Shown: positions 8,782-54,900 of the stretch, piece after piece
Numbering within the stretch: the first letter of the stretch is position 1
Layout of the letters: each line of letters starts with the position of its first letter
Notes under the pieces: model-generated
What the model was told of the DNA's origin: nothing
Databases searched by the model: none
Seen by the model: only the letters and a program-made list of their open reading frames with translations
From: Mimachlamys varia
Lineage: Eukaryota > Mollusca > Bivalvia > Pectinida > Pectinidae
Assembly: GCA_947623455.1 (NCBI GenBank)
Contig: OX392527.1
Span: 3,530,001-3,594,000 of the forward strand
Direction of reading: 5' to 3'
Length of the DNA: 64,000 nt
Translations under genes and position numbers: made by a program

Positions 8782-8994
8782 TTAGAGAAACTTTATTCTG
8801 GTGTTGTTGTGGGTCTTTCCTAACACTTCGACTAATCTAAGGGAAAAGAACTGGCAGGTGGGTTTGGGAGTTGACTGTTGGCCACTGTTTTTCATGTCAC
8901 GGGTCTGGTACATTTGTACCCAATTTAAAAGTACACAACGCGAAGTCAATTGTGGTGGCAAACTCTCATCTCCTGACCCCTCCTACTACATAAA

Positions 8995-17804: not shown

Positions 17805-18300
17805 TACCAAACTGCTTACCTCGATAATTACTTAAATTATGACCATCACTGGCAGTTTATTCCTAAGCTATACGATAAACGTGACGATTTTTATCCTTCC
17901 CCTTTCTTGATAGTAACATGTCGCAGTTGATCAGTCAATCTAGGTTTGCTCAGAATATCAATATTTTCGTGATAGATGTCTGCTGCTAACGAACAAAATC
18001 TTCCGGTGCAGGGATTTGAGAAATGCAGGTTGACTAAGAATATGAACAAGTTGTATGCTCACCATCTTGGTCTCATTGAAAAAATATTCTGTATCCTTGT
18101 TTGATGTGAGGATGGGCATTTCTGAATTTGATCATTAGTTTGTCTACTTGTTGTGATTGAGAATGATGCCTCTGTTTTAACTTTGAGGCTATGGAATTCT
18201 TTAAAATGTGACCTAGATTTAGACGCTTACTCTTCCAGAAAACCCTTGTTTGAGTTATGCAATACTGCGAAGCGAAAGTTGATTTTCTCATAAAAATGTG
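17805..18300 (+). pseudogene. Penelope-like element, C-terminal half downstream of the LTR insertion
   Basis: Immediately after the target duplication the PLE coding resumes: AYLDN, then [10 protein letters not shown] (about 17860), a SQLISQSRFAQ block (about 17922, matching the family's SQLI.YARAC), then GFEKCRLTKNMNKLY (about 18013) and HLGLIEK. Stops and frameshifts are present. The order matches the copies at 56.75-57.03 and 57.89-58.10 kb. Confidence 0.7.
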
Positions 18301-21834: not shown

Positions 21835-21990
21835 CTAGCGGAGGCTGGGTAGTTGCTTCATCCCTCCTACTCCCTCCTGTTCTGGACTGGTCTGGAGATA
21901 TATTCCAGAAAACCCTTTCCAGTTGATGGTGTCGTCAGATTTGAAGCGAATCAGTAGGTATTCTCCTGACGAAATTATCTCCGAGGGCAC
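21835..21990 (-). CDS. BMP1: Tolloid last exon: CUB5 end and stop
   Basis: Encodes [32 protein letters not shown], then a short non-conserved tail rich in Glu/Gly, ending TAG. FKSDDTI..KGF matches BMP1 FHSDDTITKKGF. Confidence 0.93.
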   Translation of the reverse strand: MPSEIISSGEYLLIRFKSDDTINWKGFSGIYLQTSPEQEGVGGMKQLPSLR

Positions 21991-24900
21991 CTACACAATA
22001 CAAAGCACTATCGTATATATTCTGTAATGCATGTAGCACATCAGCTCTATCCGCTGTCTGAAATAACCGACCACAAAATGACATGATTTAAAGACAACGT
22101 CTTATTTTGATTCAGATTCATATTTGGTGGGGAAATATAACTATTTTACATACAGTGGAAAAGGTAGCACATATGTGCTATTATTCTGAAAACATCATCG
22201 TCATGTCACTACGTTATATATTTTATAGTGAGACTCATGTCTAACGTTATATATTAGCATTAACGCAGGGTTTTACTGTCTTCGCCAATTAAGTTCTGTA
22301 CTGAACACAAACCGACTCCGTCCATGAATATACCAACCTTGCTTCCACAGTATCGGTCCACCAAGGGATCGGTGTCGTGCATTCCGTCATATATCTCCAC
22401 GTTGTCGTACCTGTCCATAGAACATTCACGTAGTGCAATTAACATGACAAAAATGACAAACAATTACAGGTAGATTCTATTGATTTTCCAGGCCACCAGA
22501 GAGACAGAAAAGAAAAAAAATGTTTGCTTCAAAAAATTTGATAGATATAACGGTATGGGATGTTATTTTACAAAACAAAGACAAAAGATTGTTTTCAATT
22601 CACTCACAAGAATCTAAATAAATGTCATGATCAACCATTTTGTTAAAGTCTGCAGCTCTTTAAAAGCAAATATTTGGCCAAATATGGTACATGAACGTGA
22701 AGATTCTCGATAAATTTTGGCCTATGAACTTGGCTATGCGTTACTTTCTATTTATTTGTAGTGATCGTTGAAAATAAGCTTAAGGTAAATAATGGTTAGG
22801 TATCATGATTTTAGGGTTTACAGACGAAGATAAATAAACTTGTTTAAAACACATATCACTGTAAACTTGGACAAGCATCAAGTCAAATTGTTTTTGTTTT
22901 CAACTCACCCGCATTCGCTCTCGTCTTCTATTTCAAACGTGACAAAGTAGAACTTAATACGCTTGTTGCTTTTGGCCTCAATCACCCACTCGCATTCCAT
23001 CTTGTTGTCGTAGTTTTGGTCGCCATACTTGGAGTGTGAGTACAATCTCTGCTGGCCATCCTTAGCTGTCAGGTGCCCACCGCATTCTTCAAACATCAAC
23101 ATCAAACAGATTTAGTAAAGAACGATTTATTTCCCCTTCTCCTCGTGTTACTTTCGATATGACAGAAGTTATTAATATTTCATATATCCTCTCTTTTTAT
23201 TACATATATTCAAATATATGTATAGAGTTATTTACATAATTTAATTTTAATAGATAAATGGGGTTTTGATTTTAAACAGTTAAAGCCTGCTTGTTTTTAA
23301 GCAGTAATGTATAGTAGTGTACACGTCTGACACGTTTGGTGGTACTTACCCGTTTTGTGGATGGCGTGGAAGCCTTTGCGCTGTACCGACGCGTCCGAGT
23401 AGAACACCATATACATGACGTTGCTACTGGAGCTGATTGGACGAGGGATACTACTGCCACAGAACCGGCCCAGGCTGCGGGCATTCGAGTCCTTGCCGTC
23501 GAATATTTCAATGTGGTCGTAAGTACACTCCTGGTGGGGCTCCAACTCAAAGTGCTGGAACACAAGCTTGATCCTGTGTCCCTCAGTGGTAGTGAACTGC
23601 CACACACAATCCTTTCGACTCGGGTAGTAGTCTGGCCAGTTCGGGCTGCTTATCTCCCCTTGGGGGTCACTGTTGGTGTGTTGGCAGCCACCTAGTACAA
23701 CATATGTATGGGGTGTCCATAACTGTGTCGGTTAACTTATGACAGGTACGAAATATAGTTCATACCTTACAGTGTGCCACAGTTACTGACAATGCTATAA
23801 GGATGTGTAGAAATGCATTAACGTATGTTGAGTCAGTGTTCACATCAATCTTATTAATAATCTTCGATCTTGCATTTAATCTTCATGATTGCCATAACTT
23901 ATAATCACTTAACAAATCGTTTTATTGACGCGTCATGCAGCTATTAAAGTTCCAGCTAAAGAAGATGTGAGCATGTCTTTGACCTTTTATTGGTGTCGCC
24001 GATGATCTTACCTTCCTTACAGTCATGTTTGTTTTCGTGTAAGGTGAATCCATTGTGGCAGGCACACTCATAGCTACCAACCGTGTTCTTACAAATATGT
24101 TGACAGCCTCCATTGTTTACAGCACATTCATCCATGTCTGCAAGAAAAATAGACTGGATCATAACATCAGAGGTAATAAAGAGGCCTTGTTTCATTATCA
24201 TAAGGGACTGTTCATAATGACATCAGGAAGTGTCCTTTACGTCATGTTGAACCGTGTCTATTACGTCATTAGTAAGAGTGTATTTCGTCATGATCAAGTA
24301 TATTACCTGTAAAGAAGACAGCTTGGAAACCTGTTTTCTGCACGGAGTTATCAGAGTTGAACTCGATTCGGAGAGTGTTGCTCTCGGAAGTGATGGGCAT
24401 GGGGAGGTTGGAACCACAGAATATCCCGTGTACGACTGCCTCCGTGCCTACTCCACTGCTCACACGCACCGAGTCGTACTCACAGTCTTGCTGTCAAACA
24501 AACACACATAATCATTATTTCCGGTAGCGGCCATCAATACATTTCATATATATTCTCTCATTAATCAATCAATATTATATTCATCTTGAAGCTTTTATAA
24601 TCGGATAAGTCATATTTTGTGATTTGTTTTATTGAGATAACTTAAAACCAGTTTAGTAAAACCCGCTCACATTGTTGCCTTCCATGTCAAAATGTGTGAA
24701 GTTGAGTGTGATCCTGTACTGGTCCGGGGCTACAATCTCCCACACACACATCTTGTTGGGCGGGTACAGGTCAGGGAAGGAGGGACTCTGAATCGTACCA
24801 TTAGCCAGGTCTATGTAACCTCCACAAGCATCTAAGTATATAGAAACATATATTGTTACATTTCTCTCTCGAATTACAGCCAAAGCAAATATATCATGTA

Positions 24901-27900
24901 TATATCAATTTCTAAAGAAAATATCATAATACATAAAAAAAATATCATGAAAGTTATCAATTTAAATATGAAATTGTTGATTTATACCTAGCATTAATAT
25001 TAAACACTTTTTTCCAAGACTTTGATTGCTGGATTGTGATTAAACTGACTTTATCTCACATTGAAAATCTACCTCAGACACGCTGTGTCGTTACCTTCAC
25101 ACTTTTTGCCGTCTGAGTGGAGCTCGTACCCAATTTTACATTCACACTTGAAGTTGCCGAGTGTGTTGACACAGATATGGTCACAGCCATGGTAGTCTGT
25201 TGCACATTCGTCATACTCTGTAATGCAGCAGAATACAAATTAATGTAACAAATCTGTAAAACAACGTACCACGCATGTGTCTCTCGTCACAATCTGTAAA
25301 ACAACGTACCACGCATGTGTCTCTCGTCACAATCTGTAAAACAACGTACCACGCATGTGTCTCTCGTCACAATCTGTAAAACAACGTACCACGCATGTGT
25401 CTCTCGTCACAATCTGTAAATCAAACACATTGTGTAGCAGTTGTCAGTAACTTATGTAACTCAAATCTGTTCTACAGATATTTTATGCTATAATCTAAAA
25501 CAGAATTTGATTATTTGTTTGTATAACAAACACATATAAATATTTGTATTCGCATATAAGTCATCTGTCCGTACCGCCCCTTCCGAAAGTCGAGGGAATC
25601 TACCTACCCTTTGCGAACGAAACAGCGAACCAAGCTTTCTGTAAAGTCAAAAGAATCTACCTATCCTTTGCAAGCGAAGGGAATAGTCGCGAGAATCTAC
25701 CAACTATTTATAAATTAAGTAGCGAACCCAGCCTTCTGTACAGTCGAGAGAATCTACCTACCCTTTACAAACGAAACAGCGAACTCACCCTTCCGAAAGT
25801 CGAGTGAATCTACCTACCATTTACAAACGAAGCAGCGAACTCACCCTTCTGTAAAGTCGAGGGAATCTACCTACCCTTTACAAACGAAGCAGCGAACTCA
25901 CCCTTCTGTAAAGTCGAGGGAATCTACCTACCCTTTACAAACGAAGCAGCGAACCCAGCCTTCTGTAAAGTCGAGAGAATCTACCTAATATTTACAAACG
26001 AAGCAGCGAACTTACCCTTCTGTAAAGTCGAGAGAATCTGCCTAATATTTACAAACGAAGCAGCGAACTCACCCTTCTGTAAAGTCGAGGGAATCTACCT
26101 ACCCTTTACAAACGAAGCAGCGAACCCAGCCTTCTGTACGGAGCCGTCAGACACAAACTTTACATATAACTTGTTTCCGGTAGATTTGATGTCCTCTGGG
26201 ATTTTATAGCCACAGAATCGACCAATGAGTGGAGAGTTATCCTCGTGTCCATCCCTTATCTCCAGATAGTCATAGACACAGTTGTCATGGTTCTCGATCT
26301 GGTTACAAAAGAGAATATAGACAATTTAGACATTTTGCAGTAGACCACACACACACACCCAATACAAACTCGAGTCCTAAAGAGGCTAGAAAATTAAAAC
26401 AAGACAATCCTACTATTGTGGGACAACAAAAAGTTTTACGAAACTAAGCAGGGTACTTAGGTCAGTACATATCAATAAACATTAGGTGTCAACTATGTAT
26501 ACTATACCGTAGATATTTACCACGTGTTTTACTCATTGTATAGTATATCTCTATCGATAATAAAGGAAGTTTCGTGTGTTTCCAATATCCACTGTTAAGT
26601 AAACAGGAACTACAATATATCATGGAACTTTAATAGGCCGCACGCTGCTGTTAGAACAGAACCCGCGGTAAGAATGAGTTATTTAAGAGAACGGTTAATG
26701 CGTTGATGTTGTTGGCACTAACATCTGAATTTCCAGTGCTTGTTTATGCTGTCAAATAGATTGACGTAAAAGTAAAGAAATAAAAAGTTGTACTTGCTGT
26801 CTTAGTAACGTAATAGCCTGCAGGCCTGGTGTAGTCTGTGGGAGTAACGTAATTACCTGTGACCCAGGTGTGGTCTCCGAGAGCCTCACAGACCTGTAAG
26901 GTGCTGCTAATATTTGGCTCGGCCTGCCATAAACACAATTTCCCCTCGAACAGCGAAATAATTAAATACAAGCCAATATCTGGAACATATCCAACTTTAT
27001 CTTTCTTCCATAATCTTTATGTACGTGTAGTGGACTATAATGAGGGCTACCTGTGACGGATCGCTCAGTTGGTACGAATATTCTCCCGGGGGTTCATATC
27101 TGGGCTGTTGATATTGCGTTTGTCCCCTCATGTTTCAGTTGCACCATTAACTAATCCATGTGTAATATGTGTGTGTTAAGCAACATAAAATCCGAAACAG
27201 GTTTGTAAATAATTTTAAAATATTTCAGGACTAATGTTAAGCTAGTAGCGATATAAACTACAGTATGACAAAATTTTAAATTAGTCAAATGATACAAAAT
27301 GTATCTCGTAATATCCTTTTTATAATACATTTTTCGAGTTACACAGACATCCTTTCTAAACTTTCCGATTAAACACCACTTAGATAAAAACAATACACTA
27401 TCCTGCCATTACCAATCTCCCAACCACCACCAAAATGCATGTCCCACCTCCCAGTCACCAATAGCCCGTTGGTCTCACTTCCCAGCCACCACCAATCTGT
27501 ATGTCATCCCGCCACCATCAATCTGTTTGTCCCACTTCCCAGTCACCAATAATCTGTTGGTCTCTCTTCTCAGCCACCACTAATCTGTTTGTCGAACTAT
27601 CCCGCCACCACTAATCTGTTGGTCTAACTATCCCGCCACCACTAATCTGTTGGTCTAATTATCCCGCCACCACTAATCTGTTTGTCGAACTATCCCGTCA
27701 CCACTAATCTGTTGGTCTAACTATCCCGCCATCACTAATCTGTTGGTCAAACTATCCCGCCACCACTAATCTGTTGGTCTAACTATCCAGCCACCACTAA
27801 TCTGTTGGTCTAACTATCCCGCCACCACTAATCTGTTGGTCTAACTATCCCGCCACCACTAATCTGTTGGTCTAACTATCCCGCCACCACTAATCTGTTT

Positions 27901-30900
27901 GTCTAAGTATCCAGTCACCACTAATCTGTTTGTACCACTATCTAGTCACCACTAATATGTTGGTCCCACTATCCAGTCACCACTAATCTGTTTGTCTAAC
28001 TATCCCGCCACCACTAATATGTTTGCCCCACTACCCAGTCATCGCCTTTGTGGTTGACCAACTATCCAGACACTACAAGCATGGTTGTTCCACTATCTGA
28101 CAACTTTCCAGGAAATAAATTCATATGATGAATAAATCTGTTTTGCCGTACAGGTGTCATTGTTTGTAGAAACAAGACCAGAAGGTGAGTACAAATATCT
28201 AAAAGAAACATACCTAAACACTGGAATCACAAACTACAATGAAAGTGATGCAAATTTCTAAGTTTACAATCATATACTTTAATTTTTTAAAGAAAACAAC
28301 ACACATATAGTATGTACAATGCATGGTTTTGGGTGGAAAGTAAATTGTTCTTACAGATGTATACGGAACTCTAGATTAATGAAAATATTCAAAATATTTC
28401 TCTATCATTCCACTACTTGAGTATAGAGTATCATAATGCAAATTTGTATCACGGAACGTAGAATGATAAGAAATTAGTTACCGGTCTAACGAAGCTAGTG
28501 CAGACAGCGATAAACGTTGCTAACAAGTTTGTTTTTGTGAAGTTTCGAACACCAATAAAAAAACGTCGGATTCGTATCCTTATCATTAATGAGATTTCGA
28601 AAAAAACCGAGATAAGTTTTGTTCCGTCTTTCACTAGATATTGAAGGTGCATAGGAAGATTTTCCTTATTTATCAACCAGTCTAGTTAATGGTACAGACA
28701 CGGACCAGGTCATTAGAGTCTATGTCTGGTGATACAACTACACACATTCCATGCAAAGCGTCAAATGTATGTTGGATATCAGCGCCAAGAAATACTGACG
28801 AGTGTGTTTCATTTTCTTTGTTTTCCATTAAAGCTGCAGTTGTTTTGTGAATGTCAGATCGGATAAACTAAGCCTATTCCCCTAGTACATTCAATTCAGC
28901 GTGCTCTAGTGTTGTCTCTTTTTTCTCGTGAAGTAAAATAAGAGAATACCGAAGCGTCAACATAATCATAATCCAAACTCAAAATCGATTAAACCAGGGG
29001 CAAAATTGAACAAAGGAAAGATTTACATGGAGACCCTTGCAAAAGTACAAGAGAATAAGACCAGGTGTTCCGGAAGAGTAAGCGTCTTATTCTTCATCGA
29101 CGACACCCGCCATGTAAATCTTTGTCACAAGGTGTATAATAGAATCAGGTAAACTTAACGGATCAAGCTCCAATGGAGACATTGAGTCTCTTATTTTTCA
29201 TATTTTTTTTCAAAACAGAGGTAATTTATCTCTGTCGTCACAAACAACAGGAGCTATATTTATTGTTCACGATATTCCTTAATCACTTACCTCAAAAGAC
29301 TGGAACTTCAGCGCCACTGAGAAGTGTTCTTCCACAGAAATTTTCCAGATGCACTCTTTGTTTGGTTTGTAGTCGTCGGGATAGTTGGGACTTGTTAGCT
29401 GTCCATTTTCCTTGTATATTTCACCACCACAGATAGCTGTCCAACAGAACACAGGACCAATCATAGCTTCCCCAGAAAATGTCAGTGTAAACAATGAACA
29501 TTATCGTGGCGTGGACATGTTCACGGCTTTCACACAAGTCAATTAGTGAGAACACATCCATATCAAAACTGAATTGACTACAGGAATTATGATGTCAAAA
29601 CTATTACAAGTAAGCAAAAATTCGACATCGAGATCATTTTAAAATGTCAAAAGGGGATAAACTTTCTTTTTACTGTGATCAATATTAATACGACTGTGAT
29701 ACTTCTGTAAAAAAAAAAAAAACTTTTGTTGAAAAAAAAAGAACTAAACCAAACAATTACATTTCTTTTTTGTATAAACAAGTATAATTGCATATTTTGA
29801 CTTTTGGTGTTACCTTCATACTGGGCACTAAACCCTGACCCCTGACCTCGGCTTGACCTGTACTCCAGCCACATGCGACTGTCAGAGGAGATGAGCGTTG
29901 CTGGGATTCTATCACCACAGTAACGACCTAAAATCGAGAAAGTCATTCTACATGTCATGTCACAGTTCCATTGTGGTAATAATAGCTGTTCCTTTGAATC
30001 CGATATCAACAAAGCCAACTTTTATGAGATGTAGTCGGTACATATTTGATGTCCCTCCTGACTGTAAGCAGGAGAACACAGTGTAGATCTACAAATATGT
30101 ACCGCGCCTTGTCACCTGTACATCATCTTAGTGTGACGTCACTCTGCTTCATCCATGTACACGTAAAATCACCTGCATATAGTCACGTATTTCTGCATTC
30201 ATTTGCTGTTGATATAACAACTTTGGTATAGAAACAACCATGTACTACATGCAATGACTGTGATAGCATGTGTCAAGAATGATAAAAGGTGTGTTTGTAA
30301 ACTTATCTCAGTTGTAATGAATTCATCATTGATCAAAGTGCATTGAAATAGGTTGCCAAATTTGTTTTCATGAAACTTTATATTACAAGTATTTTTTTAA
30401 TGGTTTATACATGTACATGGTTCACACTAGAAACAAGAAACACTGTAAGAACAATACAAATATGACATGTTAAAATTAATAACCAGCGTTTGAACATCTG
30501 ACATAGACTACCACTTATTACCATGACTGTTAGTGATATATTTATATCGTTGTTTGGACTGCATACCGTTTGGTACTACTTTTAGGGATATTTATATCGC
30601 TGTTTGGACTGCACACAGTTTGGTACTACTTTTAGGGATATTTCTATCGCTGTTTGGACTCTATAACACCAAATACCACTGTTAGGGATATTTCTATCGC
30701 TGTTTGGACTCTATAACACTCAATACTACTGTTAGTGATATATTTATATCGCTTTTTGGACTGTATACCGTTTGGTACTACTGTTAGGGACATTTATATA
30801 GCTGTTTGGACTCTATAACACTCAATACTACTGTTAGTGATATATTTATATCGCTGTTTGGACTGTATACCGTTTGGTACTACTGTTAGAGATATTTATA

Positions 30901-33900
30901 TCGCTGTTTGGACTCTATAACACTCAATACTACTGTTAGTGATATATTTATATCGCTTTTTGGACTGTATACCGTTTGGTACCACTGTTAGGGACATTTA
31001 TATCGCTGTTTGGACTCTATAACACTCAATACTACTGTTAGTGATATATTTATATCGCTTTTTGGACTGTATACCGTTTGGTACTACTGTTAGAGATATT
31101 TATATCGCTGTTTGGACTCTATAACACCCAATGCCACTGTTATGGATATTTATATCGCTTTTCGCAGACTACCCCACCTATTACTACTGGTTTGCCACTC
31201 TCTATATGTTATTTATCGCTACTGTTTAAGCTTCATGCCTCATGATATTACATCATTAGTAGGATATTGCTGAATACTCAACATCAGCTTTATCACATTT
31301 ACAAGTAATGACATACCATATCATTGCTAACTGTCACTATAACATCCTACTGTAGAAGTACGGCCATGATTTACCCATCCTCAAGCAATTAAATACCAGT
31401 GAACCGGGATTATACCATGTCACTGAACTTTGTTGTACAAAGAAACGTATGTATGCCACTGGACGGGAGCCAGGCAACTGTTGTAGACATAAAGTGCATC
31501 CATTTTCAGTGCATCCACCACCATAATTTACCCACCAAGAACTGCATCATCGGTGCATCACCAGATGATAAAGTTATATATAGTACACGTCCTATCCGAC
31601 AGATCAGACGTCGGCAGTCCACAGAGGGGCGCTTTACACACACAAGATAGTGTCTAGACGGAACAACATTGTAGCAGCAGGCGAATAGGTCCTCACACCG
31701 GGGAGAACAAATGTTTCAATCTTCCATGAACGTCGTTTTGATGGCATCGATGAAAAATTGTTATAATTGATCGACGACATGTTCAAAACAACAGTAGTTA
31801 ATGGACTCTGTCTTTATCACGTGTGAATTAAGCTTGGCTAGCATACATCGCAACCTCAGCAGCAACTGTCAAATATAATCACTTATATTTAATTCGTATA
31901 ATATATTAAAGATTTCATACATAACAGTGTTTGAATATGCACTTCAATATGCCTACTTGTGTGAGTGACTAAGAATGATGTTCAAATTCTCGGTTTGAGG
32001 ACGCGATGTTTACTTTGATATGACATACATTTACATGGCGGATTACGAATTAAATATAAGTGATTATATTTGACAGTTGCTGCTGAGGTTGCGATGTATG
32101 CTAGCCAAGCTTAATTCACACGTGATAAAGACAGAGTCCATTAACTACTGTTGTTGTTAACTACGGTGTGAGGACCTATGTTTACTTTGATATGACATAC
32201 ATTTACATGGCGGGAGTCGTCGATGAAGCAGATCACGCTTACTCATCCGGGACACCTGGTCTTACTTCTAGTAGTTTTTGAAACTTCGGTATTCTCGTTT
32301 TTTACTGACCTTCGCCACTGAAGGAGCGCCAAGGTCATTTGTCAAACATCGATATTCCCAAGTGACCTTATGACACTTAAGGATAGGTTTTAAGTGTTTT
32401 CGCGAAAGTATTCTATAAAGGAAATTTTCACATTTACCTCAAAATAACGCTAACATTTGACTTCGTAACAAAATGCTAGACTGTATGATGAACTGTATTT
32501 TCATGGTTTGCCTACATCGCCCAGACCCCGTACTTATCCGCCAAACTAGCACGTAACCCCGGCAGTGAGAATCTTCTACATAAACTTGACACTTACATAG
32601 TTAACGTTTTTATCGCCGATCTAGACATTTCATGTTATTTGTCCGATCAGAGAAAAAATGCCTTTGATTACACATGCTACACTTTCTAACCTGTTTTAAT
32701 GTGATTTTATTGATACTTAAAAACGACGAAAAAAGTACGACAGACATAACATCACAATCATCTGTTGGTTTTTATGGTAAGAAGAATCCATGATGACTTA
32801 GTGAGTCAATTTTCTACCTCTGGATCAATACTAGCCTGCCGATGTTACGATGAATACACCCATCAGTGCCAATTACACGTCAAAACCTGTCCATTTAGCA
32901 CGACCTCCAGCCCTCTACCAACCGTTTCCCATTCCTCAGCCTTTACTCTTAACCAAACGTCGGGCAAACACACTCAATAGACCGAAACACAGAGTACTTC
33001 AGGAATATTGAAGAAACTGCAAGTTATAATGGTACTCTTACTTGAATGTTTACTTGTCTCACTAAAGCCATGGTCAATCATATAATCTGTCAATCCTCGG
33101 AAGTAACCGTTGACCTTGAAACTAGACATTGGACTTAAGTAACAAAAAAGGAGTGTACTCTAAATAAGCGGTTTGTGACGAGAGTTCACTCAGATTTTTG
33201 TGTTATAACCCCATAACATAAAAAATAAATTCAAGTTAATACTTATAATGTAATCTATACCCTGCGAAAATTAACTTTATTGATGGACTCTTTTCTCTTA
33301 CAAATCATAACGCTGCTGCATCAGCCAATCAAAAGCGACGTTAAAAACGGCAACGTCATTGTTTACATTATGGGCTGATAACAGTTTTTTAAGTCAATGA
33401 AAATGCTTGTTTCAAACAAGATTAGATTATTTTCGCGTTTTTCTTATTGGTAATTATTCGCGGGTATAACATTTCGGGCACTGCTGGATTTATTTGTTCT
33501 CTCATGGACATCAGTCTTACATGCTGTTATATTTCACTTGGACTTAAACACTATACTCTGTGGATCAAATACAATGCAAAATAGTGTATGTGTGGTATCA
33601 CTTTTACCTACCAAGGAGAGGTGATCGGATATAATGGCCATCACGAATTTCCAGGTAGTCAGTTTCACAACCAACTGTTTCTGGAATGTCAAGTGTGGTG
33701 AGATTGAGTACGATCTTCTCCCCGTGGGTAGCAGATATTCTCCAGTGGCACATCTCCGCTTCGTTGGCCTTGGGTGTGTGGGAAAAGTCAGCTATAGACT
33801 CTTGAAGGGTCCTTCCACATTCTGATAATACAAAAAGTTCGAAAATTTCTGTTAAAGTCAAATTTATAAGACTTAGAAAAAATGGAAGAATGATGTCAGA

Positions 33901-39900: not shown

Positions 39901-42900
39901 TGCTAGTTAATACACGTTAACGCGCTGTAGGATAGGTACGGAGGCAGTAATAATGAATGGCTGCTAGTTAACACATGTTAACGCGCTGTAGGATGGGTAC
40001 GGAGGCAGTAATACTGAATGGCTGCTAGTTAACACACGTTAACGCGCTGTAGTATGGGTACGGAGGCAGTAATAATGAATGGCTGCTAGTTAACACATGT
40101 TAACGCGCTGTAGGATGTGTACGGAGGCAGTAATAATGAATGGCTGCTAGTTAACACATGTTAACGCGCTGTAGGATGGGTACGGAGGCAGTAATACTGA
40201 ATGGCTGCTAGTTAATACACGTTAACGCGCTGTAGGATAGGTACGGAGGCAGTAATAATGAATGGCTGCTAGTTAACACATGTTAACGCGCTGTAGGATG
40301 GGTACGGAGGCAGTAATACTGAATGGCTGCTAGTTAACACACGTTAACGCGCTGTAGTATGGGTACGGAGGCAGTAATAATGAATGGCTGCTAGTTAACA
40401 CATGTTAACGCGCTGTAGGATGGGTACGGAGGCAGTAATAATGAATGGCTGCTAGTTAACACATGTTAACGCGCTGTAGGATGGGTACGGAGGCAGTAAT
40501 ACTGAATGGCTGCTAGTTAATACACGTTAACGCGCTGTGGGATAGGTACGGAGGCAGTAATAATGAATGGCTGCTAGTTAACACATGTTAACGCGCTGTA
40601 GGATGGGTACGGAGGCAGTAATACTGAATGGCTGCTAGTTAACACACGTTAACGCGCTGTAGGATGGGTACGGAGGCAGTAATAATGAATGGCTGCTAGT
40701 TAACACATGTTAACGCGCTGTAGGATGTGTACGGAGGCAGTAATACTGAATGGCTGCTAGTTAACACACGTTAACGCGCTGTGGGATGGGAACGGATGCA
40801 GTAATAATGAATGGCTGCTAGTTAACACACGTTAACGCGCTGTAGGATGGGTACGGAGGCAGTAATACTGAATGGCTGCTAGTTAACACATGTTAACGCG
40901 CTGTAGGATGGGAACGGAGGCAGTAATAATGAATGGCTGCTAGTTAATACATGTTAACGCGCTGTAGGATGGGTCGGAGGCAGTAATAATGAATGGCTGC
41001 TAGTTAACACATGTTAACGCGCTGTAGGATGGGTACGGAGGCAGTAATACTGAATGGCTGCTAGTTAACACATGTTAACGCGCTGTAGGATGGGAACGGA
41101 GGCAGTAACAATGAATGGCTGCTAGTTAGCACATGTTAACGCGCTGTAGGATGGGAACGGAGGCAGTAATAATGAATGGCTGCTAGTTAACACATGTTAA
41201 CGCGCTGTAGGATGGGAACGGAGGCAATTATAATGAATGGCTGCTAGTTAATACATGTTAACGCGCTGTAGGATGGGTACGGAGGCAGTAATACTGAATG
41301 GCTGCTAGTTAATACACGTTAACGCGCTGTAGGATAGGTACGGAGGCAGTAATAATGAATGGCTGCTAGTTAACACATGTTAACGCGCTGTAGGATGGGA
41401 ACGGAGGCAGTAATAATGAATGGCTGCTAGTTAATACATGTTAACGCGCTGTAGGATGGGTACGGAGGCAGTAATAATGAATGGCTGCTAGTTAACACAT
41501 GTTAACGCGCTGTAGGATGGGTACGGAGGCAGTAATAATGAATGGCTGCTAGTTAACACATGTTAACGCGCTGTAGGATGGGTACGGAGGCAGTAATAAT
41601 GAATGGCTGCTAGTTAACACATGTTAACGCGCTGTAGGATTGTCTGGACTCTCAGCTACCCACCGTATACCATATAAAACTCTACGGTAGCCAGGACGTG
41701 CTCACAGGAGGGACTCAAGTCATATCTCATGTAGGACTCTCATAGGATGTTCCTGTAGCACCCTCAGCTCCTTCTATATCCCATACAGTACTCAACATAA
41801 TCAGGACATGTCATAACCCATACAGTACTCAACATAATCAGGACATGTCATAACTCATATAGTACTCCACATAATCAGGACATGTCATAACCCATACAGT
41901 ACTCAACATAATCAGGACATGTCATAACCCATACAGTACTCAACATAATCAGGACATGTCATATCCCATACAATACTCAACATAATCAGGACATGTCATA
42001 ACCCATATGGTACTCAACATAATCAGGACATGTCATAACCCATATAGTACTCAACATAATCAGGACATGTCATAACTCATATAGTACTCAACATAATCAG
42101 GACATGTCATAACCCATAAAGTACTCAACATAATCAGGACAAGTCATATCCCATACAGTACTCAACATAATCAGGACATGTCATATTCCATACAGTACTC
42201 AACATAATCAGGACATGTCATAACTCATATAGTACTCAACATAATCAGGACATGTCATAACCCATACAGTACTCAACATAATCAGGACATGTCATAACCC
42301 ATACAGTACTCAACATAATCAGGACATGTCATTACTCATATAGTACTCCACATAATCAGGACATGTCATAACCCATACAGAACTCAACATAATCAGGACA
42401 TGTCATATCCCATACAGTACTCAACATAATCAGGACATGTCATAACCCATATAGTACTCAACATAATCAGGACATGTCATAACCCATATAGTACTCAACA
42501 TAATCAGGACATGTCATAACCCATATAGTACTCAACATAATCAGGACATGTCATATCCCGTACAGTACTCCACATAATCAGGACATGTCATAACCCATAC
42601 AGTACTCCACATAATCAGGACATGTCATAACCCATAAAGTACTCAACATAATCAGGACATGTCATAACTCATATAGTACTCAACATAATCAGGACATGTC
42701 ATAACCCATAAAGTACTCAACATAATCAGGACAAGTCATATCCCATACAGTACTCAACATAATCAGGACATGTCATATTCCATACAGTACTCAACATAAT
42801 CAGGACATGTCATAACTCATATAGTACTCAACATAATCAGGACATGTCATAACCCATACAGTACTCAACATAATCAGGACATGTCATAACCCATACAGTA

Positions 42901-45900
42901 CTCAACATAATCAGGACATGTCATAACTCATATAGTACTCCACATAATCAGGACATGTCATAACCCATACAGTACTCAACATAATCAGGACATGTCATAT
43001 CCCATACAGTACTCAACATAATCAGGACATGTCATAACCCATATAGTACTCTCACAGAATTAGGACGTTCACCCACTCGCAGCTACCAGCCGTATCCCAA
43101 ACTCAGAACGTGCTGGTCCATTTAGCATAGGAGTGTGTAACCCCAAGAAAAAAAATCGTTTGCAATAAAATCTTACTGGAGGGATGTGTAGCGGACATAG
43201 AGGGCAGTTGACTCGAAAGAAATATATATACAACGAAAATAACTTTCAAATGCCTTTTGATATCTCACCGTACCCTCACACACACATACATATGTTCCCT
43301 TGTACATAAATATATCAAACCAGCTAAAAACCAGTATCGTATATCGTAAATTTTGATTTTGGCAAAGTACCATTTTAAACTATCATCTGTATGTCTATCA
43401 ATCAGCGATTTCTTATAGTGTGTCAGACTGAGAAGTACATGTTTGTTCAGTACAGCAGTACAGTATTTGATAGCAAAACTTATATAACAGTGACCACAAT
43501 ATTCACTTCACTGTACAAAGTTCTCAAAATCACGTTTACGTAACATCACATGCTTGATATTTGACCTGATACCGAGAGGACTAAGGTTATGTATGACGGT
43601 GGTACTTACTTTGACATTTGTATAGTTTGTTGGCTTGCCTTATGTCCCCTGGACTAAGGTTATGAATGACGGTAGTACTTACTTTGACATTTGTATAGTT
43701 TGTTGGCTTGCCTTATGTCCCCTGGTCTAAGGTTATGTATGACGGTGGTACTTACATTGTATTTGACATTTGTATAGTTTGTTGGCTTGCCTTATGTCCC
43801 CTGAACTAAGGTTATGTATGACGGTGGTACTTACTTTGACATTTGTATAGTTTGTTGGCTTGCCTTATGTCCCCTGGTCTAAGGTTATGTATGACGGTGG
43901 TACTTACTTTGACATTTGTATAGTTTGTTGGCTTGCCTTATGTCCCCTGGTCTAAGGTTATGTATGACGGTGGTACTTACTTTGACATTTGTATAGTTTG
44001 TTGGCTTGCCTTATGTCCCCTGGTCTAAGGTTATGTATGACGGTAGTACTTACTTTGACATTTGTATAGTTTGTTGGCTTGCCTTATGTCCCCTGGTCTA
44101 AGGTTATGTATGACGGTGGTACTTACTTTGACATTTGTATAGTTTGTTGGCTTGCCTTATGTCCCCTGGTCTAAGGTTATGTATGACGGTAGTACTTACT
44201 TTGACATTTGTATAGTTTGTTGGCTTGCCTTATGTCCCCTGGTCTAAGGTTATGTATGACGGTGGTACTTACTTTGACATTTGTATAGTTTGTTGGCTTG
44301 CCTTATGTCCCCTGGTCTAAGGTTATGTATGACGGTAGTACTTACTTTGACATTTGTATAGTTTGTTGGCTTGCCTTATGTCCCCTGGACTAAGGTTATG
44401 AATGACGGTAGTACTTACTTTGACATTTGTATAGTTTGTTGGCTTGCCTTATGTCCCCTGGTCTAAGGTTATGTATGACGGTGGTACTTACTTTGACATT
44501 TGTATAGTTTGTTGGCTTGCCTTATGTCCCCTGGTCTAAGGTTATGTATGACGGTGGTACTTACTTTGACATTTGTATAGTTTGTTGGCTTGCCTTATGT
44601 CCCCTGGTCTAAGGTTATGTATGACGGTTGTACTTACTTTGACATTTGTATAGTTTGTTGGCTTGCCTTATGTCCCCTGGACTAAGACGAACTCTCTGTC
44701 CTATCTCCGGGTAAACATCGGTTTTCTTCCTCGGAAGGATAGTATCCACGTAAGTGGCTCTGGCAAATGTGTTCGTGGCATAGTGCATGATACTTCCGTA
44801 ATCATATTCTTCTCCAAGTGAATTCACTTCACTCTCTGTCAACTTGTTGAAATTGTATTCCTGGCCTGGATGTTCCATATGAAAAATAACCAAATTTTGG
44901 TCCACTTATTTTAATGCTATGGACAAGATATTCGAGCTAAAGGAGGGAGGGAAAAATCAACGAATGACAAGATAGAAGTGAACAAAAGACAATACTGATA
45001 CATGAGATTTACACAGAAGAAACAATATTGGTTATGCATAAAACGAATATCGTGTACAATAAAAAGGAACATTTTTATTTTAAAGCGCGTGTTATTGCGA
45101 GAAACATCCTTTTAGCTACTATGACCACTTTTTAATTGACTTTACTCTCGTATTACAAACAAAATCCTCGTTATCCAGGGGTGATGTTCACCTAAGCTAC
45201 TCCCCTAGAAAATGTCACTGCAACATTGAAGGCTCTGTCTGTGCCAAATTGTTGGTGAGGCAAGAACAATAGTTATATCATTGGTGTACATCGAATTCGC
45301 TCCTTTGAAATCTTCAAAGCACAGGTATCAGCCTAGCCAGTTTTTTCACCACGATACCAGTCAAAAACCGATCTTCGTGCCTTCAGTTTTGTCATGCCAT
45401 ATTCTAGGAGTGTAGAGAACGTAGGCTAGCGTAACTCCGGGATATCGAGGATATACAAAACCCAGTCTAAACAATGTGTATTAAACCAAGTAAAACGAAA
45501 CGTTGTGTATATAGAATTTGAAGTGACCCATGTTATAAGATAGTGACTATCCGCTGTCCATGTGACTTCAAGGTTGTGTTCGGACCACTCACCTGGCATA
45601 ATGTTTTTGTATATAATCTGTACATGGTCATCCCGGTCGGGTCGGGTATGCTCGTGCCAAAAACCAATGACATGGCCCAACTCGTGGACAACTATTCCAA
45701 ATTTGTCACAGTTTTTCCCAATCGATATTGCTTGGGCACCGCTTCCCCTCTTGCCAACAAATGAACAACATCTGCAAAAATCAACGAAATTTCTTTCTTC
45801 TAAAAGCTTCAATATTGTATAAATTTTAGTTGTCTTCTAACGATTGAACGGGTCTTAAATACGAACACAGTATTCCGTTGTATATCTATAACATTTGTTC

Positions 45901-48900
45901 TTTCTATCATTTCAACAATTTTCATTAACATTAAATGTACTGTCAAACGGAACGAAAAATAAAGTATATAAAAAATGTACACATAAATTCTTTTCCAATT
46001 CAAGATAAAACAAATATATTCGTAAAATTTGGTTTGCGTGCTCAGTGTACTTTAAGAAACTAGAAACTGTTTTTGACAGGTGTGAATAATGATCAATGAA
46101 AGTATTATAGGGCCGGTGACTTTAATGGCCATTACGTTTGCCCTCGTGACTTTTGTTCTGCATGCTACCAAGTCTAATACATCCCAAAATCAAGATGCCA
46201 TGTGTTACAAATAAAGAAACTGACAGAATTCTTTAGCAGATCATCAAAGTACAATCGAGTAATAACGTAGACGATATAAATAACCTGCCCCTGACAAACA
46301 AGCTAATGTGTTTACAAACCCCGTCCAGCTGGCTTGGTGCCAATCAAACAAGCGTATTACACTCTCAAAACATATATAAAACATTGCCATCGGGATAAAA
46401 TGGTATACCCAGATAAATTTGCAACTAGATCGAGTTATGTTGCCCCCCACGTGTATAGAGCCAGCAGGAAGCTAAGTATCTATCAATAACGACGTCAGTG
46501 AAATCTGTTTAACACGTGTTTATTAAACTGCAGGTGTAACCAACATATATCTTACCTGAACCGGTAGCACTGCATTTCCTTTGTTATTGAAGTAAAAGTA
46601 ACGTACGAATTAGCGTTACAGGGCAATACTCGCTATCACACATTTAATATGTATAGTTTCCTATCTGTAGATACATATTATATTACTAAACTGTAGTTAT
46701 CCATCATAGTTATAGAGCAATATATTACCTGTAGTTACCAATCATTGTTATAGAGTAATGTTTTACCTGTAGATACATATTTTATTACAGATTATACATG
46801 TACTAGGACGCTATAGTACCACCCTAACTATACATTTTGTACATACAATAAGAGGTCCAATGTGCCTATAATGTATCTATAGAGATCTATACTTTTACTT
46901 GGACATTATAGTACCACACTAACTATACATGTTTTACATACAATAAGAGGCCCAATGTGCCTATAATGTATCTATAGAGATCTATACTTTTACTTGGACA
47001 TTATAGTACCACACTAACTATACATGTTTTACATACAATAAGAGGCCCAATGTGTCTACATCGTTCACACGGTATTGTTCTGTAACTTGTTATCGCAAAG
47101 TTACAGCCAAATATCATATCTCCAGGCTTTATCACCATGTCTGTTCTGTCGGCCTTTAATAATTTCAGAAGATATCATTTAAACCTTTCGATATACCAAG
47201 AAACCTTAAAAATAGGTCAAATATTTAATTTGGAAACTTTGCGCGCTACTAGAAAGAAGATGCTGACAGGAAAAAATTACGAACACAGGACGGACAAGGG
47301 ACACTGCATCATGGAATAGACTCAATAATTCAGGTAAGCTGAAAATACCGAAGCAACAACAAAACCGTGATCAGAAAAGAAGCCGATTAAACTAGGGGAG
47401 ATCTTCAAAGGCAAATTAACATGGAGGCCCTTCAAAAAGTTCAAGATAATAAGACCAGGTGTTCCGGAATAGTAAACGTCTTCTGCTTCATCGACGACAC
47501 CGTTATATTAATCCCGGTCACATCCAAGTAATTGTCACGTCTTCAAAGTAAGAACTGAGGCATCATTCTCAATCAGAACAAGCAGGCATACTAACTAGCA
47601 AATTAAAAATATCAACCTTCATGTTATACAAGAAAACAATGTGACTAAGATAGCGACAATAAAACTTACTCATATTTTTCATTAACCACCATCTCTCGAA
47701 TCCCTGTGCCATAAAGTTTGTCAGAAGCCCACATTTATCACAAAAATCCAGAAACTTAGAGCAACGCCAAGAATAACGAACGATCTGCGACATGTTCACA
47801 ATTTAGAATGGAAAAGCTGGGCTATCAATAAAGATCACGTTCGGGAAATCACAATCGACGCGTTTATTGTATAGCTTACTAGTAATCTACCCGTGTTTGT
47901 CAGTGTAGGTAAAGATCGATGTAGAAGAGTCTGTGTGTCCTAAGTTTCAAGTTCAGAAAGGTAAATACGATCGGCGTGTTCAGCAAAACTTCTTGTTATC
48001 TATAGACACCACAACGTCCATATACTTAGTAAAACAGCAAGATTTGATAAACTCATCGACAAATTGAGCCTGACATGAAAACAAAAATATTTCAGCGAAT
48101 AGTGGGGCATAATTGTTCATTCAGGAGTGCCAACAGTTTGCTGGAGATTTTGTCAATCAGGAATTCAATTATTCGTGTAATATCCTTCTCAGTGTATTAC
48201 ATCTAAGCTTTAGTTGTATTTTTCACAAAATACGTTCCAAGATAACTCACAACCATATCATTATATCGTTGTTCTCCTTTCCTTAGAACGAAAGCTCTCA
48301 TAAAGACAGATCGAATGTGTTCTTTCAGTTTGGTATGAGGTATAATAGGGTACCGGGTGGAACTATCAAATCATTGATAGACGAAACAGTTTTTAAAAGG
48401 GAGTTTTCAAGACTGACCTGTACAATACCCTATCTCATACAAAACTGAATGAACGTCTTATATATCTTGTTATGAGAGCTTTCTTTTCCAAAAATGCGGG
48501 CGACGATACAAATATATGGAAGGGAGCTATCTTGGAGTATACCTTTACATCAGCTGCTTATCGCATATATAGTATATATAGTATCTACTTAAATGTAACC
48601 CGCAGCAAAGAACCACTGTCAAAGAGCTGTGAGTACGTGGTCAAGTTTGACCACCTGTAAACCAGGTAATTCCTAGTCAGAGCTGTGAGTACGTGGTCAA
48701 GTTTGACCACCTGTAAACCAGGTAATTCCTAGTCAGAGCTGTGAGTACGTGGTCAAGTTTGACCACCTGTAAACCAGGTAATTCCTAGTCAGAGCTGTGA
48801 GTACGTGGTCAAGTTTGACCACCTGTAAACCAGGTAATTCCTAGTCAGAGCTGTGAGTACGTGGTCAAGTTTGACCACCTGTAAACCAGGTAATTCCTAG

Positions 48901-51900
48901 TCAGAGCTGTGAGTACATGGTCAAGTTTGACCACCTGTAAACCAGGTAATTCCTAGTCGGAGCTGACGTAACACCTCTGCATTATCTGGACCATGTTTAC
49001 GTCAGCTAGTTCTAATTTGGTCAGAACTCATTCAAGTTCGCGGCAACGCTTAGGACACCACATAGGGCTAAAAATACAGCGGCTGTATCCAGAGCTTGAT
49101 TATTCGATTTTTGTAGATAAATTGAATGATAAAATGAGACTTAAGCATTTCAAGGGAAGCCCTATCGCTGTTCTTCATCACCTGCAATGTTCCCTGTGTA
49201 TTTCAGATACCAATAACACGTGTCAAATCACCGTGTGGTCGTGAAATGTCCACTTATCGGACCAATAACTGCTCTCAAGGTCAGAGAGCTGAAAGTCAGA
49301 GATGCAGACGAAGATGGGGATACTATATTTGTTTGTACAAGGTAATTTGTTACAGTGCTGTGTTTTGTTTGGCTCCGGTGATCAGGTGACACTGTCTATA
49401 AATCAGGGGACTGGTCTGTTGAGACAGACCCATTACCGGAGCTGGTCAGTGGCCAGAACTGACCTCATGTTGGGCATTTGTCCTATCCTCCAAAACCCTA
49501 CTCAATCCAAATCAATAAGTGCATGCAGTCACCATCTGCAGCCGATGAACCATAAGCAATTAATAGAAAGTCCGTCTTCGAGTCCTTATTCTCATAAATA
49601 TTACTTTGCTGTAGATAAAATTAAGTCGTCTTATACAAACGAGATATTGAACTGAATCAGTAGAAAGGCCTATATGTAATAACTTAACGAATGTCTATAA
49701 GAGTTTATATTACTGAAGTAAGTTTTGAACCTTAATCAATGTTCATCAAATCATGTGTTTTTTAGTATCATTGGACGTAGTATTTATTGAATACGATAAT
49801 GATTAAACTTAATTTCTACGATCTTTGGATTCCCCACGCACATAAAAAAGCGGTTTAAAAGGGTCTTTGGGAATTTTCATGCAAAGATCACCTTATCTCT
49901 AGGTGTATCTAGACAATTATCAGTTTATCTGCAATCTAGAATGTTTGCTATATATACTGGACTTTAAGGCTTTTCAAGACAAATGTCTGTGTGCTGGTGA
50001 ACCTACCCACAAGGCCGCTCTGTAAACACAATGTAATTACTGTGTGTTGGTTGTACCTACCCACAAGGCCGCTCTTTAAACACAATGTAACTACTGTTTG
50101 CTGGTTGTACCTACCCACAAGGCCGCTCTGTAAACACAATGTAATTACTGTTTGCTGGTGTACCTACCTACAGGGCCGCTCTGTAAACACAATGTAATTA
50201 CTGTGTGCTGGTTGTACCTACCCACAAGGCCGCTCTGTAAACACAATGTTATAACTGTGTGCGGTTGTACCTACCTACAAGGCCGCTCTGTAAACACAAT
50301 GTAATAACTGTGTGCTGGTTGTACCTACCCACAAGGCCGCTCTGTAAACACAATGTAATTACTGTGTGCTGGTGTACCTACCTACAGGGCCGCTCTGTAA
50401 ACACAATGTAATAACTGTATGCTGGTTGTACCTACCTACAGGGCCACTCTGTAAACACAATGTAATTACTGTGTGCTGGTGTACCTACCAACAAGGCCGC
50501 TCTTTAAACACAATGTAATTACTGTGTGCTGGTTGTACCTACCCACAAGGCCGCTCTTTAAACACAATGTAATAACTGTGTGCTGGTTGTACCTACCCAC
50601 AAGGCCGCTCTGTAAACACTATGTAATTACTATGTGCTGGTGAACCTACCCACAAGGCCGCTCTGTAAACACAATGTAATTACTGTGTGCTGGTGTCTTC
50701 TCCACAAACGACACACAGGTATAGTTCTCCCAATGCCGCATGGCCAGCTTGAACAGGGCTTTATGTTGACCTGAAACAAGATTTAGTTCGGGTTATCTTA
50801 GACAGCTGTATAAAACATCAATTTCAATGTTGGTATTATTTATAGGATGCCATGAAATATAAAACTAAATTACCTAGTCTTTAACATTTCATTTTGGATA
50901 TTTCCAGTAAGGTGTAATTCTCTTTGTAAAATAAAAGATACCGGGTGTAACAAATTTGATGAGAGACAGTTGAAGGTTCGGTTATGAGATCTTGTTAAAC
51001 TAATTATCAGGGATAATCCAAATCATATCACGAACATCTACGGTGATTATTGAAGATTTTGGGTACAACCCTGTCATATATTATATTGCTCCACTTCTCA
51101 TATGGCAGGTCTTTGTATTTTAAAAGCAACAACTTTCTATTATCGTTTTCCTCCGACAGATCATAAATCTTAAAATTTCTGAAATAATTTGTGATTGTTA
51201 AGATAGTCACGTAAGCAAAGCAGCAACTTTTCCCGATGCTCTGGCTGTTTTGTGTATGTAGATTACTCAGATCAATAGTTTGCGGCTTATGCTAGCATAA
51301 TATCACTTTATATCTTCTTGATAGGGTCATATTCATTGAATTAATTATTCATTGTTCTTCTTAAACACGGTAGTGTATTGATAAATATATGTTCTCAATG
51401 CCGATCTTCAATGAAATGCCTGCCCTCTCTGTAGTGGTTCGCCTTTCTGTAGTCCTTGTCCTCTCTGTAGTCATTGTCCTCTCTGTAGTTCTTGTCCTCT
51501 CTGTAGTCCTTGTCCTCTATGTAGTCCTTGTTCTCTCTGTAGTCCTTGTCCTCTCTGTAGTCCTTGTCCTCTCTGTAGTCCTTGTCCTCTCTGTAGTCCT
51601 TGTCCTCTATGTAGTTCTTGTCCTCTATGTAGTCCTTGTCCTCTCTGTAGTCATTGTCCTCTCTGTAGTCATTGTCCTCTCTGTAGTTCTTGTCCTCTAT
51701 GTAGTCCTTGTCCTCTATGTAGTCCTTGTCCTTTATGTAGTCCTTGTCCTCTATGTAGTCCTTGTCCTCTATGTAGTCCTTGTCCTCTATGTAGTCATTG
51801 TCCTCTCTGTAGTCCTTGTCCTCTATGTAGTCCTTGTCCTTTATGTAGTCCTTGTCCTCTATGTAGTCCTTGTCCTCTATGTAGTCCTTGTCCTCTATGT

Positions 51901-54900
51901 AGTCATTGTCCTCTCTGTAGTCCTTGTCCTCTCTGTAGTCCTTGTCCTCTCTGTAGTCCTTGTCCTCTCTGTAGTTCTTGTCCTCTATGTAGTCCTTGTC
52001 CTCTCTGTAGTCATTGTCCTCTCTGTAGTCATTGTCCTCTCTGTAGTTCTTGTCCTCTATGTAATCCTTGTCCTCTATGTAGTCCTTGTCCTCTCTGTAG
52101 TGGTTCGCCTCTCTGTGATCCTTGCCCTATCTGTAGTCATTGTCCTTTCTGTAGTCCTTGCCCTTTCTGTAGTCCTTGTCCTCTCTGTAGTCATTGTCCT
52201 CTCTGTAGTGGTTCGCCTCTCTGTGATCCTTGCCCTATCTGTAGTCATTGTCCTTTCTGTAGTCCTTGCCCTTTCTGTAGTCCTTGTCCTCTCTGTAGTC
52301 ATTGTCCTCTATGTAGTCCTTGTCCTTTCTGTAGTCATTGTCCTCTATGTAGTCCTTGTCCTTTCTGTAGTCCTTGCCCTTTCTGTAGTCCTTGCCCTAT
52401 CTGTAGTCATTGTCCTTTCTGTAGTCCTTGTCCTTTCTGTAGTCATTGTCCTCTATGTAGTCCTTGTCCTCTCTGTAGTGGTTCGCCTCTCTGTGATCCT
52501 TGCCCTATCTGTAGTCATTGTCCTTTCTGTAGTCCTTGCCCTTTCTGTAGTCCTTGTCCTCTCTGTAGTCATTGTCCTTTCTGTAGTCCTTGTCCTCTCT
52601 GTAGTCCTTGCTCTCTCTGTAGTCCTTGTCCTCTCTGTAGTTCTTGTCCTCTCTGTAGCCCTTGTCCTCTCTGTAGTCCTTGCCCTCTCTATAGTCCTTG
52701 TCCTTTATGTAGTCCTTGTCCTCTCTGTAGTCCTTGCCCTCTCTGAAGTCCTTGCCCTCTTTGTAGTCCTTGTCCTTTATGTAGTCCTTGCCCTCTCTGT
52801 AGTCCTTGTCATCTCTGTAGTCCTTGCCTTATTTGTAGTCCTTGCCCTCTCTGTAGTCTTTGCCCTCTCTGTAGTCCTTGTCCTCTCTGTAGTCCTTGTC
52901 ATCTCTGTAGTCCTTGCCCTCTCTGTAGTCCTTGTCACTTTTGTAGTTCTTGCCCTCTTTGCAGTCCTTGCCCTCTCTGTAGTCTTTGCCCTCTTTGTAG
53001 TCCTTGTCCTTTCTGTAGTCCTTGTCCTCTCTGTAGTTCTTGTCCTCTCTGTAGCCCTTGTCCTCTCTGTAGTCCTTGTCATCTCTGTAGTCCTTGCCCT
53101 CTCTGTAGTCCTTGTCATCTCTGTAGTCCTTGTCATCTCTGTAGTCCTTGTCATCTCTGTAGTCCTTGTCCTCTATGTAGTCCTTGCTTGCCCTCATTGT
53201 AGTCCTTGTCCTCTCTGTAGTCCTTGCCCTCTCTGTAGTCCTTGTCATCTCTGTAGTCCTTGTCCTCTATGTAGTCTTTGCCCTCTTTGTAGTCCTTGTC
53301 ATCTCTGTAGTCCTTGTCCTCTATGTAGTCCTTGCTTGCCCTCTTTGCAGTCCTTGCCCTCTCTGTATTCTTTGCCCTCTCTGTAGTTCTTGTCCTCTCT
53401 GTAGTCCTTGTCCTCTCTGTAGTCCTTGTCCTCTATGTAGTCCTTGTCCTCTATGTAGTCCTTGCCCTCTCTGTAGTCCTTGCCCTCTCTGTAGTCCTTG
53501 TCCTCTCTGTAGTCCTTGTCCTTTCTGTAGTCCTTGTTTGCCCTCTCTGTAGTCCTTGTCCTCTCTGAAGTCCTTGCCCTCTTTGTAGTCCTTGTCCTCT
53601 CTGTAGTCCTTGCCCTCTCTGTAGTCCTTGCCCTCTCTGTAGTCCTTGTCCTCTCTGTAGTCCTTGCCCTCTCTGTAGTCCTTGTCATCTCTGTAGTTCT
53701 TGCCCTATTTGTAGTCCTTGCCCTCTCTGTAGTCTTTGCCCGCTCTGTAGTCCTTGTCCTCTCTGTAGTCCTTGTCATCTCTGTAGTCCTTGCCCTCTCT
53801 GTAGTCCTTGTCATCTCTGTAGTCTTTGCCCGCTCTGTAGTCCTTGCCTTCTATGAAGTCTTTGCCCTCTTTGTAGTCCTTGCCCTCTCTGTAGTCTTTG
53901 CCCTCTTTGTAGTCCTTGTCCTTTCTGTAGTCCTTGTCCTCTCTGTAGTCCTTGCCTTCTTTATAGTCCTTGCCCTCTTTGTAGTCCTTGTGGTTCCTTT
54001 TGTAAACTCTTTTCCATCCAATGAATGTAGAGTAACACGGAAGACCAAACGAGCGATCGACATTAACATTAAATAGCGTAGCCGGTAAAAGGCTGACAAC
54101 AAGGACAATCGACGCAGCATTATCTAAACACAGCTGACCAGTAGTTTGGATACTCACCACTAAAGTTAGCCTCGATCTCGTACGGTATGACGCCGTAGTC
54201 CCAGAGACGCTCGGGCCGAGCTGTGGCGGCTCTCTTTGATCGCATGTTGGTCGTATTCTCCGTGGTGGACACGCTCATTTTCCTTTTCCTTTTCCTTTCA
54301 AGTTTTCTTTTTAATCTCTGTTCCCTCCTCTTTTTCTTTTCCGCTTTTCTTAGTGATTTGCATTTTTTATCTCTGCAAACATAAAATACATATGTATCTT
54401 TGATTATTCTTCCTATGACAATTACATGCAAATCTGCTCAAAAGGAAATAAAATGGCCAACAACATGACTGAAATTGATATTATACATTTAATAACTTAT
54501 ACTAGGATGACGTTTCGATGGTAAATGCAAGATGCACTTTAATTTTTATCAGACAAATTACCATTGTAACAAAGGTATAGGTGACCTTACTCACATTCTA
54601 AACCGCTTAGAATTAGACAGATCATGTCAGTAAAACACAAATTTAAAGATTCAGGACAATAGGTAGTGGAATATGTAAGGACACCATATCTTAGTGTTGA
54701 AGATGACCTCTATCACCATCACTTTTACACTACTACATACACAGTGTGTCATGACAATCCTGTGTTTCCTGTTTCCTATATAGTGAGAAAAAAACAAGAT
54801 TGCGAGATGTCCTTTTGAGGAGGTCAATCGTTAAATAAAACTTTATTTCAGAAGTAATACTACTAGAAATGTATTCATGTACAAATATATTACAATATCA

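Follow-up and report, generated by a model that had tools for sequence, protein, structure and literature searches.

Minisatellites across 5′ splice sites of a scallop tolloid-like gene, and a donor lean of such arrays among sampled exons

Why should three unrelated minisatellites of one gene all begin shortly before a 5′ splice site (donor) and run only into the intron that follows? The gene is a tolloid/BMP1-like gene of the scallop Mimachlamys varia (21835..54372, minus strand). It lies in a window of 64,000 nucleotides (contig OX392527.1, positions 3,530,001 to 3,594,000), and positions given without a contig are those of the window. Tandem Repeats Finder (TRF) and the gene model confirmed what an earlier note had described from the letters alone: arrays with 57-, 73- and 54-bp units start 36–49 nt inside an exon, span the donor and extend into the intron only. 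Similar arrays were found at other donors of the genome and, less often, at 3′ splice sites (acceptors). We propose, with a probability of roughly 0.6, that they are arrays like the "mirages" of amphioxus, made by genome-wide tandem duplication and retained more at 5′ than at 3′ splice sites through a splicing sieve.

Three donor arrays in a tolloid/BMP1-like gene

The 16 exons lying wholly in the window are separated by 15 introns with GT–AG borders on the minus strand. Joined, they gave one open frame up to the stop (916 amino acids), encoding an astacin protease with CUB and EGF domains. The closest protein was a tolloid-like protein of another scallop, Ylistrum balloti (1067 amino acids), with 96% identity across the whole model. 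The best matches with named species were molluscan, with Y. balloti first, and the solved structures of BMP1 and TLL1 also matched the product. A tblastn exon map added two 5′ exons on the same strand, one at about 63887–64180, straddling the window end, and one near window-relative 104600–104779. The full gene thus has 18 exons and 17 introns. Exons are numbered below among the 16 of the window.

All three arrays lie on the minus strand, and TRF included the donor in each. The 57-bp array (25685..26138, 8.0 copies) lies in exon 8 (26103..26298, CUB domain) and intron 8. The donor is AGG/GTAGGT at 26103/26102, and the unit consists of 36 nt of exon 8 and 21 nt of intron. Degenerate copies continue to about 25570, and two of the roughly eight copies lost GT. 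The 73-bp array (43581..44686, 15.1 copies) lies in exon 4 (44638..44865, the end of the astacin domain) and intron 4, with the donor AAA/GTAAGT at 44638/44637. Its unit joins 49 nt of exon 4 to 24 nt of intron. There are 15 copies and a partial copy, and 13 of the 14 later copies kept the nine bases of the donor. The third array (49987..50696) lies in exon 2 (50650..50770, astacin domain) and intron 2, with the donor TGG/GTAGGT at 50650/50649. TRF gave the period of its 53/54-bp unit as 107 and 161 bp. The unit combines about 47 nt of exon 2 with 7 nt of intron and is present in 13 copies plus a 13-nt partial copy.

Two of these arrays have direct repeats at both edges. A 13-nt repeat, CACCAGCACACAG (50683..50695, minus strand), stands in exon 2 at the proximal edge of the 54-bp array, and its mate at 49987–49999 closes the array. 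At the proximal edge of the 73-bp array, in exon 4, an 8-nt repeat, CTTAGTCC (44679..44686, minus strand), has its mate at the distal edge (43578–43585). Such matching edges are what duplication between short direct repeats would leave.

In all three exons an in-frame stop follows within 23 nt of the first donor (the open reading frames end at 26095, 44615 and 50646). The Ylistrum protein crosses all three junctions without an insertion. Since a transcript spliced further downstream would meet that stop, and the related protein has no added residues there, the first donor would be the one that yields the protein. Its use is likely, judging from the sequence and the Ylistrum protein.

Arrays covered three of the 17 donors and none of the 17 acceptors, and each of the three was otherwise confined to the following intron. 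On the acceptor side of intron 8, TRF found a 40-bp array (25251..25424, minus strand) that ends 34 nt before the acceptor of exon 9 (25217) and does not reach the splice site. Merged into 19 blocks, arrays take up 12,972 of the gene's 32,538 bp. The 16 other arrays have no exon contact. They were also tried as decayed exon copies, and none scored above its best shuffle. Another array, of 83 copies with a 23-bp unit (61660–63604), stops some 280 nt short of the second exon's donor (about 63888) and does not touch it.

The earlier note had held three of about sixteen borders to be improbable by chance. This depended on how arrays were placed. When placement was limited to at most 60 exon bases per array, at least three donors were hit in 0.6% of trials and at least three borders of either kind in 5%. 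Wholly random placement hit at least three donors in 83% of trials, swallowing whole exons, and at least three donors without any acceptor in 0.06%. By binomial arithmetic, three of 17 donors is unremarkable (about 0.3) at the rate of 19 in 166 found in the genome sample below. A single gene cannot settle whether this is chance or pattern.

Donors and acceptors in a genome sample

A codon-bias ab initio exon search of the 264 kb around the gene recovered 6 of the 16 known exons and little elsewhere, and homology was used instead. Exons of myosin heads, kinesins and dynein heavy chains were located by profile in the same 975-Mb genome and taken as pieces with about 200 nt of flank on each side. 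From 302 matches we used 166 exons in 68 gene clusters (64 of 79 matches for myosin, 74 of 134 for kinesin and 28 of 89 for dynein). Mostly clean internal matches were kept. Single-exon copies were omitted, as were the majority of the domain-end matches and of the look-alike copies on C10, and one match had no covering piece. On C10, several kinesin copies with equal scores lie within 1 Mb (C10:7990792-8949226) and are apparently near-identical. With flanks of this length, the scan missed arrays whose units are long or whose start lies deep in the flank, on both sides alike. The tolloid gene, with three donor and no acceptor arrays, was the discovery case and was excluded from the count.

Two tests were applied. 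The TRF test required an array to begin 5 nt or more inside the exon and to continue for 15 nt or more into the intron. The alignment test, independent of TRF, aligned the end of the exon to the 200 nearest bases of the intron. The sample was not closed on a chosen result, but results were inspected between batches, so all P values are nominal. Among the 166 exons, the TRF test found arrays at 19 donors, spread over 16 of the 68 gene clusters, and at 6 acceptors, in 6 clusters (19 versus 6, binomial P = 0.015). Sampled units measured about 20–88 bp and were unrelated between sites. When 15 or more exon nt were required, the counts were 15 donors versus 3 acceptors (P = 0.0075). Splice sites were called by simple scores, and the donors of C3:5401007 and C5:11520959 were called one unit too far downstream. 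This puts their exon shares at about 27 and 6 nt in place of 61 and 28, and the corrected count is 14 versus 3. Kinesin contributed 11 versus 2 (74 exons) to the TRF counts, myosin 6 versus 2 (64 exons) and dynein 2 versus 2 (28 exons).

The alignment test gave 14 donors versus 4 acceptors at a score of at least 20 (P = 0.03), where the shuffled maximum was 16 in 3320 trials, and 13 versus 4 at a score of at least 22 (P = 0.049). The donor of C5:11520959, which scored exactly 20, is not properly countable, and without it the count is also 13 versus 4 (P = 0.049). As the sample grew, the donor and acceptor counts in this test were 7 versus 2 (n = 96), 12 versus 2 (n = 118), 13 versus 2 (n = 138) and 14 versus 4 (n = 166). 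Donors led acceptors in the 166 exons (19 versus 6 by TRF). This sample therefore did not show the outcome that the earlier note had named as speaking against its proposal, namely no genome-wide enrichment at donors over acceptors or random positions.

The acceptor arrays were real arrays too. One has a 45-bp unit in five copies (C14:17929023), two have units of 66 and 68 bp (C19:476181 and C5:11520959), and three more include 6–9 nt of exon. An older partial copy at an acceptor (C5:52109608) was found by alignment only. Because acceptor arrays exist, the duplicating process is not donor-specific. The border arrays are a genome-wide class that leans to donors and is not confined to them. One dynein exon (C5:11520759-11521380) has both kinds: an array of 68-bp units spans its acceptor, and one of 22-bp units spans its donor.

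Border arrays were then set against the intronic background. The tolloid introns had 0.00094 array starts per unique base, the sequence outside the gene had 0.00087, and the sampled flanks had 0.00067 at 15–60 nt. Scaled to 166 exon ends, each of 75 nt, these three baselines predict 11.8, 10.8 and 8.3 arrays. The six acceptor arrays compare with them at P = 0.05, 0.09 and 0.28, and the 19 donor arrays at P = 0.03, 0.015 and 0.001. The asymmetry is part donor excess and part acceptor deficit, and neither is large. Intron-side array edges lay 15–60 nt from the border at seven acceptors and two donors, as if acceptor-side arrays had been stopped short of the border.

Birth at donors, retention at donors, or chance

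A sequence of steps that could give this pattern starts with a segment straddling an exon–intron border. The segment would be copied in tandem through slippage or unequal exchange, as with the abundant minisatellites elsewhere in this genome. Short direct repeats on either side of the unit, such as the 8-nt and 13-nt repeats of the two tolloid arrays, may have prompted the first duplication, and unequal exchange would then expand the copy number. When a donor is duplicated, the real donor would stay first. Splicing is predicted to take this first donor and to discard all later copies with the intron, and the duplication would be nearly neutral. When an acceptor is duplicated, intact decoy acceptors would be placed ahead of the real one, and such arrays would be purged more often. 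Splicing tolerance would account for most of the asymmetry without a special process.

The later copies fit such decoys. In 16 arrays, 75 of the 81 later copies still had GT. The decoy donors of 19 arrays (3 from the tolloid gene and 16 from the sample) numbered 91; 68 of them scored as high as the first donor, and 53 of the 91 had its exact 9-mer. Because so many decoys are as strong as the first donor, position and not strength likely decides donor choice.

Several observations weigh against retention by splicing tolerance as the full account. The dynein exons had no donor bias (2 versus 2 among 28), and given this family the donor-to-acceptor ratio may be nearer 2:1 than 5:1. The 19 donor arrays exceed the intronic expectation of 8.3–11.8, and this conflicts with pure tolerance because pure tolerance predicts equality. 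Among later copies, exon-derived sequence differed less between pairs (8.9%) than intron-derived sequence (15.0%), which a neutral model does not predict, although copy borders were placed roughly and the contrast may be an alignment effect. Donors with arrays also had a stronger consensus than donors without (median 10.7, n = 16, versus 8.1, n = 150; P = 0.001), a contrast that may be inflated, as the site-caller favors strong sites where copies abound. The strong consensus could signal a donor-linked origin. Alternatively, a strong first donor may be what renders the decoys harmless.

The last points lead to the alternative that fares best, birth of the arrays at donors. According to it, DNA damage linked to transcription or splicing at 5′ splice sites, for example through R-loops or polymerase paused at U1-bound donors, boosts tandem duplication there. 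This would explain why donor arrays reach 1.6–2.3 times the intronic expectation, why 19 arrays at the 166 donors start in the exon and only 2 start 15–60 nt into the intron, and why the donors concerned have the stronger consensus. It does not explain the arrays at 6 of 166 acceptors or the even dynein counts. Donor arrays exceed background only slightly, by an amount that varies with the baseline chosen, and the 16 other arrays of the tolloid gene neither touch exons nor match them above their best shuffles. We consider this account unlikely, though it is the strongest competitor. The earlier note had proposed a donor-centered process; its donor lean recurred outside the gene, but the acceptor arrays, the dynein exons and the modest excess speak against a process centered on donors. 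Array nucleation on donors is thus weakly supported. Equally doubtful is a wider claim, that in scallops about one in nine 5′ splice sites has been multiplied by arrays copying the exon end into the intron, with donor-linked duplication driving this above background; exon ends would then be one of the main sources of intron growth and would hold splice sites ready for new exons.

If only chance were at work in a genome so full of repeats, arrays would land anywhere and the donor lead would be sampling noise. The setting suits this view: tandem arrays of period at least 15 bp make up 54% of the surrounding 264 kb (C1:3430001-3694000), a very high share. Donor and acceptor overlaps together number 25, close to the 16.6–23.6 expected from background. 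The donor-versus-acceptor P is only 0.015, and dynein was even. Set against this, the overall count of 19 versus 6, and of 15 versus 3 when 15 or more exon nt are required, makes chance an improbable explanation.

Selection for donor copies, also raised in the earlier note, would keep extra 5′ splice sites for their benefit, for example U1 recruitment that shields long introns from premature polyadenylation. It is the least probable reading: retained GT, strong decoys and low variation of the exon-derived parts, donor included, agree with it, but two copies of the 57-bp array lack GT, array homogenization alone keeps copies similar, and the donor core was no better conserved than the exon-derived rest, either between pairs of later copies in 16 arrays (8.9% versus 8.9%) or against copy 1 (5.9% versus 6.2%). 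The donor core itself gave no sign of selection on the decoys, and there is no clear selection to keep or kill them.

Related systems and surrounding sequence

The earlier note knew of no described class of such arrays, and here it was mistaken. Tandem repeats spanning exon–intron borders were named mirages in amphioxus Adh3, and they are also described in the globins BflGb6 and BflGb9, at both borders (PMC3087553). Reverse transcription PCR is described there as suggesting that regular splicing is undisturbed, and length instability is reported (PMC3087553). Length polymorphism, even somatic, counts among the traits of mirages. PGBD5 and troponin C are given as further amphioxus cases (PMC3902484).

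The scallop arrays share the main features of mirages. Both span exon–intron borders, here at 25 of 332 sampled borders and in the three tolloid arrays. Both have minisatellite units, given as 10–160 bp in amphioxus, compared with 57, 73 and 54 bp in the tolloid gene and about 20–88 bp in the sample. Splice signals are present in many copies (AG or GT as described there, GT in 75 of 81 later copies here), and either border may be affected (19 donors and 6 acceptors in the sample, donors only in the tolloid gene). They differ in that the present arrays are from a mollusc, were counted over 166 exons, lean to donors and are known from the DNA of one genome. The cephalochordate setting belongs to the origin of the name and not to the structure, and the best matches here are molluscan. 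By analogy, the arrays would work like mirages, and the name may be extended to a mollusc.

Human internal tandem repeats are described at exon–intron boundaries within segmental duplications (PMC2812944). They are likewise minisatellites at exon borders, and they are described as able to create new introns there. As that paper presents them, they change the transcripts of young primate paralogs, whereas the tolloid gene keeps its coding frame. The Rogers model of intron gain by tandem genomic duplication is cited in PMC3087553. In that process, as here, the copied segment contains a splice motif; a new intron arises there, whereas in the scallop the many copies lie in an intron that already existed. 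The potato RdRp gene reportedly gained an intron in that way, when a duplicated segment with a splice motif yielded a new intron. Papers on earthworm metallothionein and abalone TSSK1 report intronic minisatellites, none border-spanning in their accessible text (PMC12783039, PMC6905558). Searches of an open-access library brought up no molluscan or donor-counted case of border arrays, which does not prove that none exists; only two papers in that library mention mirages along with minisatellites and amphioxus. The present arrays extend a class that was already described to a mollusc and add a count that leans to donors.

If the donor lean holds genome-wide, such arrays would provide many natural experiments, with identical or near-identical donors 20–90 nt apart and only the first expected to be used. 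These series would put to the test whether 5′ splice sites are chosen on a first-come basis or by strength. The arrays would also show intron growth from exon ends, and they likely carry the mirage phenomenon to a distant phylum.

Other repeats were seen in the window and the sampled regions. Two 1,654-bp direct repeats (7339–8992 and 16153–17806) are 100% identical and lie about 7.2 kb apart. The pair resembles a very young long terminal repeat (LTR) retrotransposon, and each LTR contains 42- and 51-bp tandem repeats. At C18:5787428-5789635, C3:42120585-42125189 and C9:3912317-3914980, open frames of 744–1573 amino acids cross introns and are probably stop-free intronic arrays.

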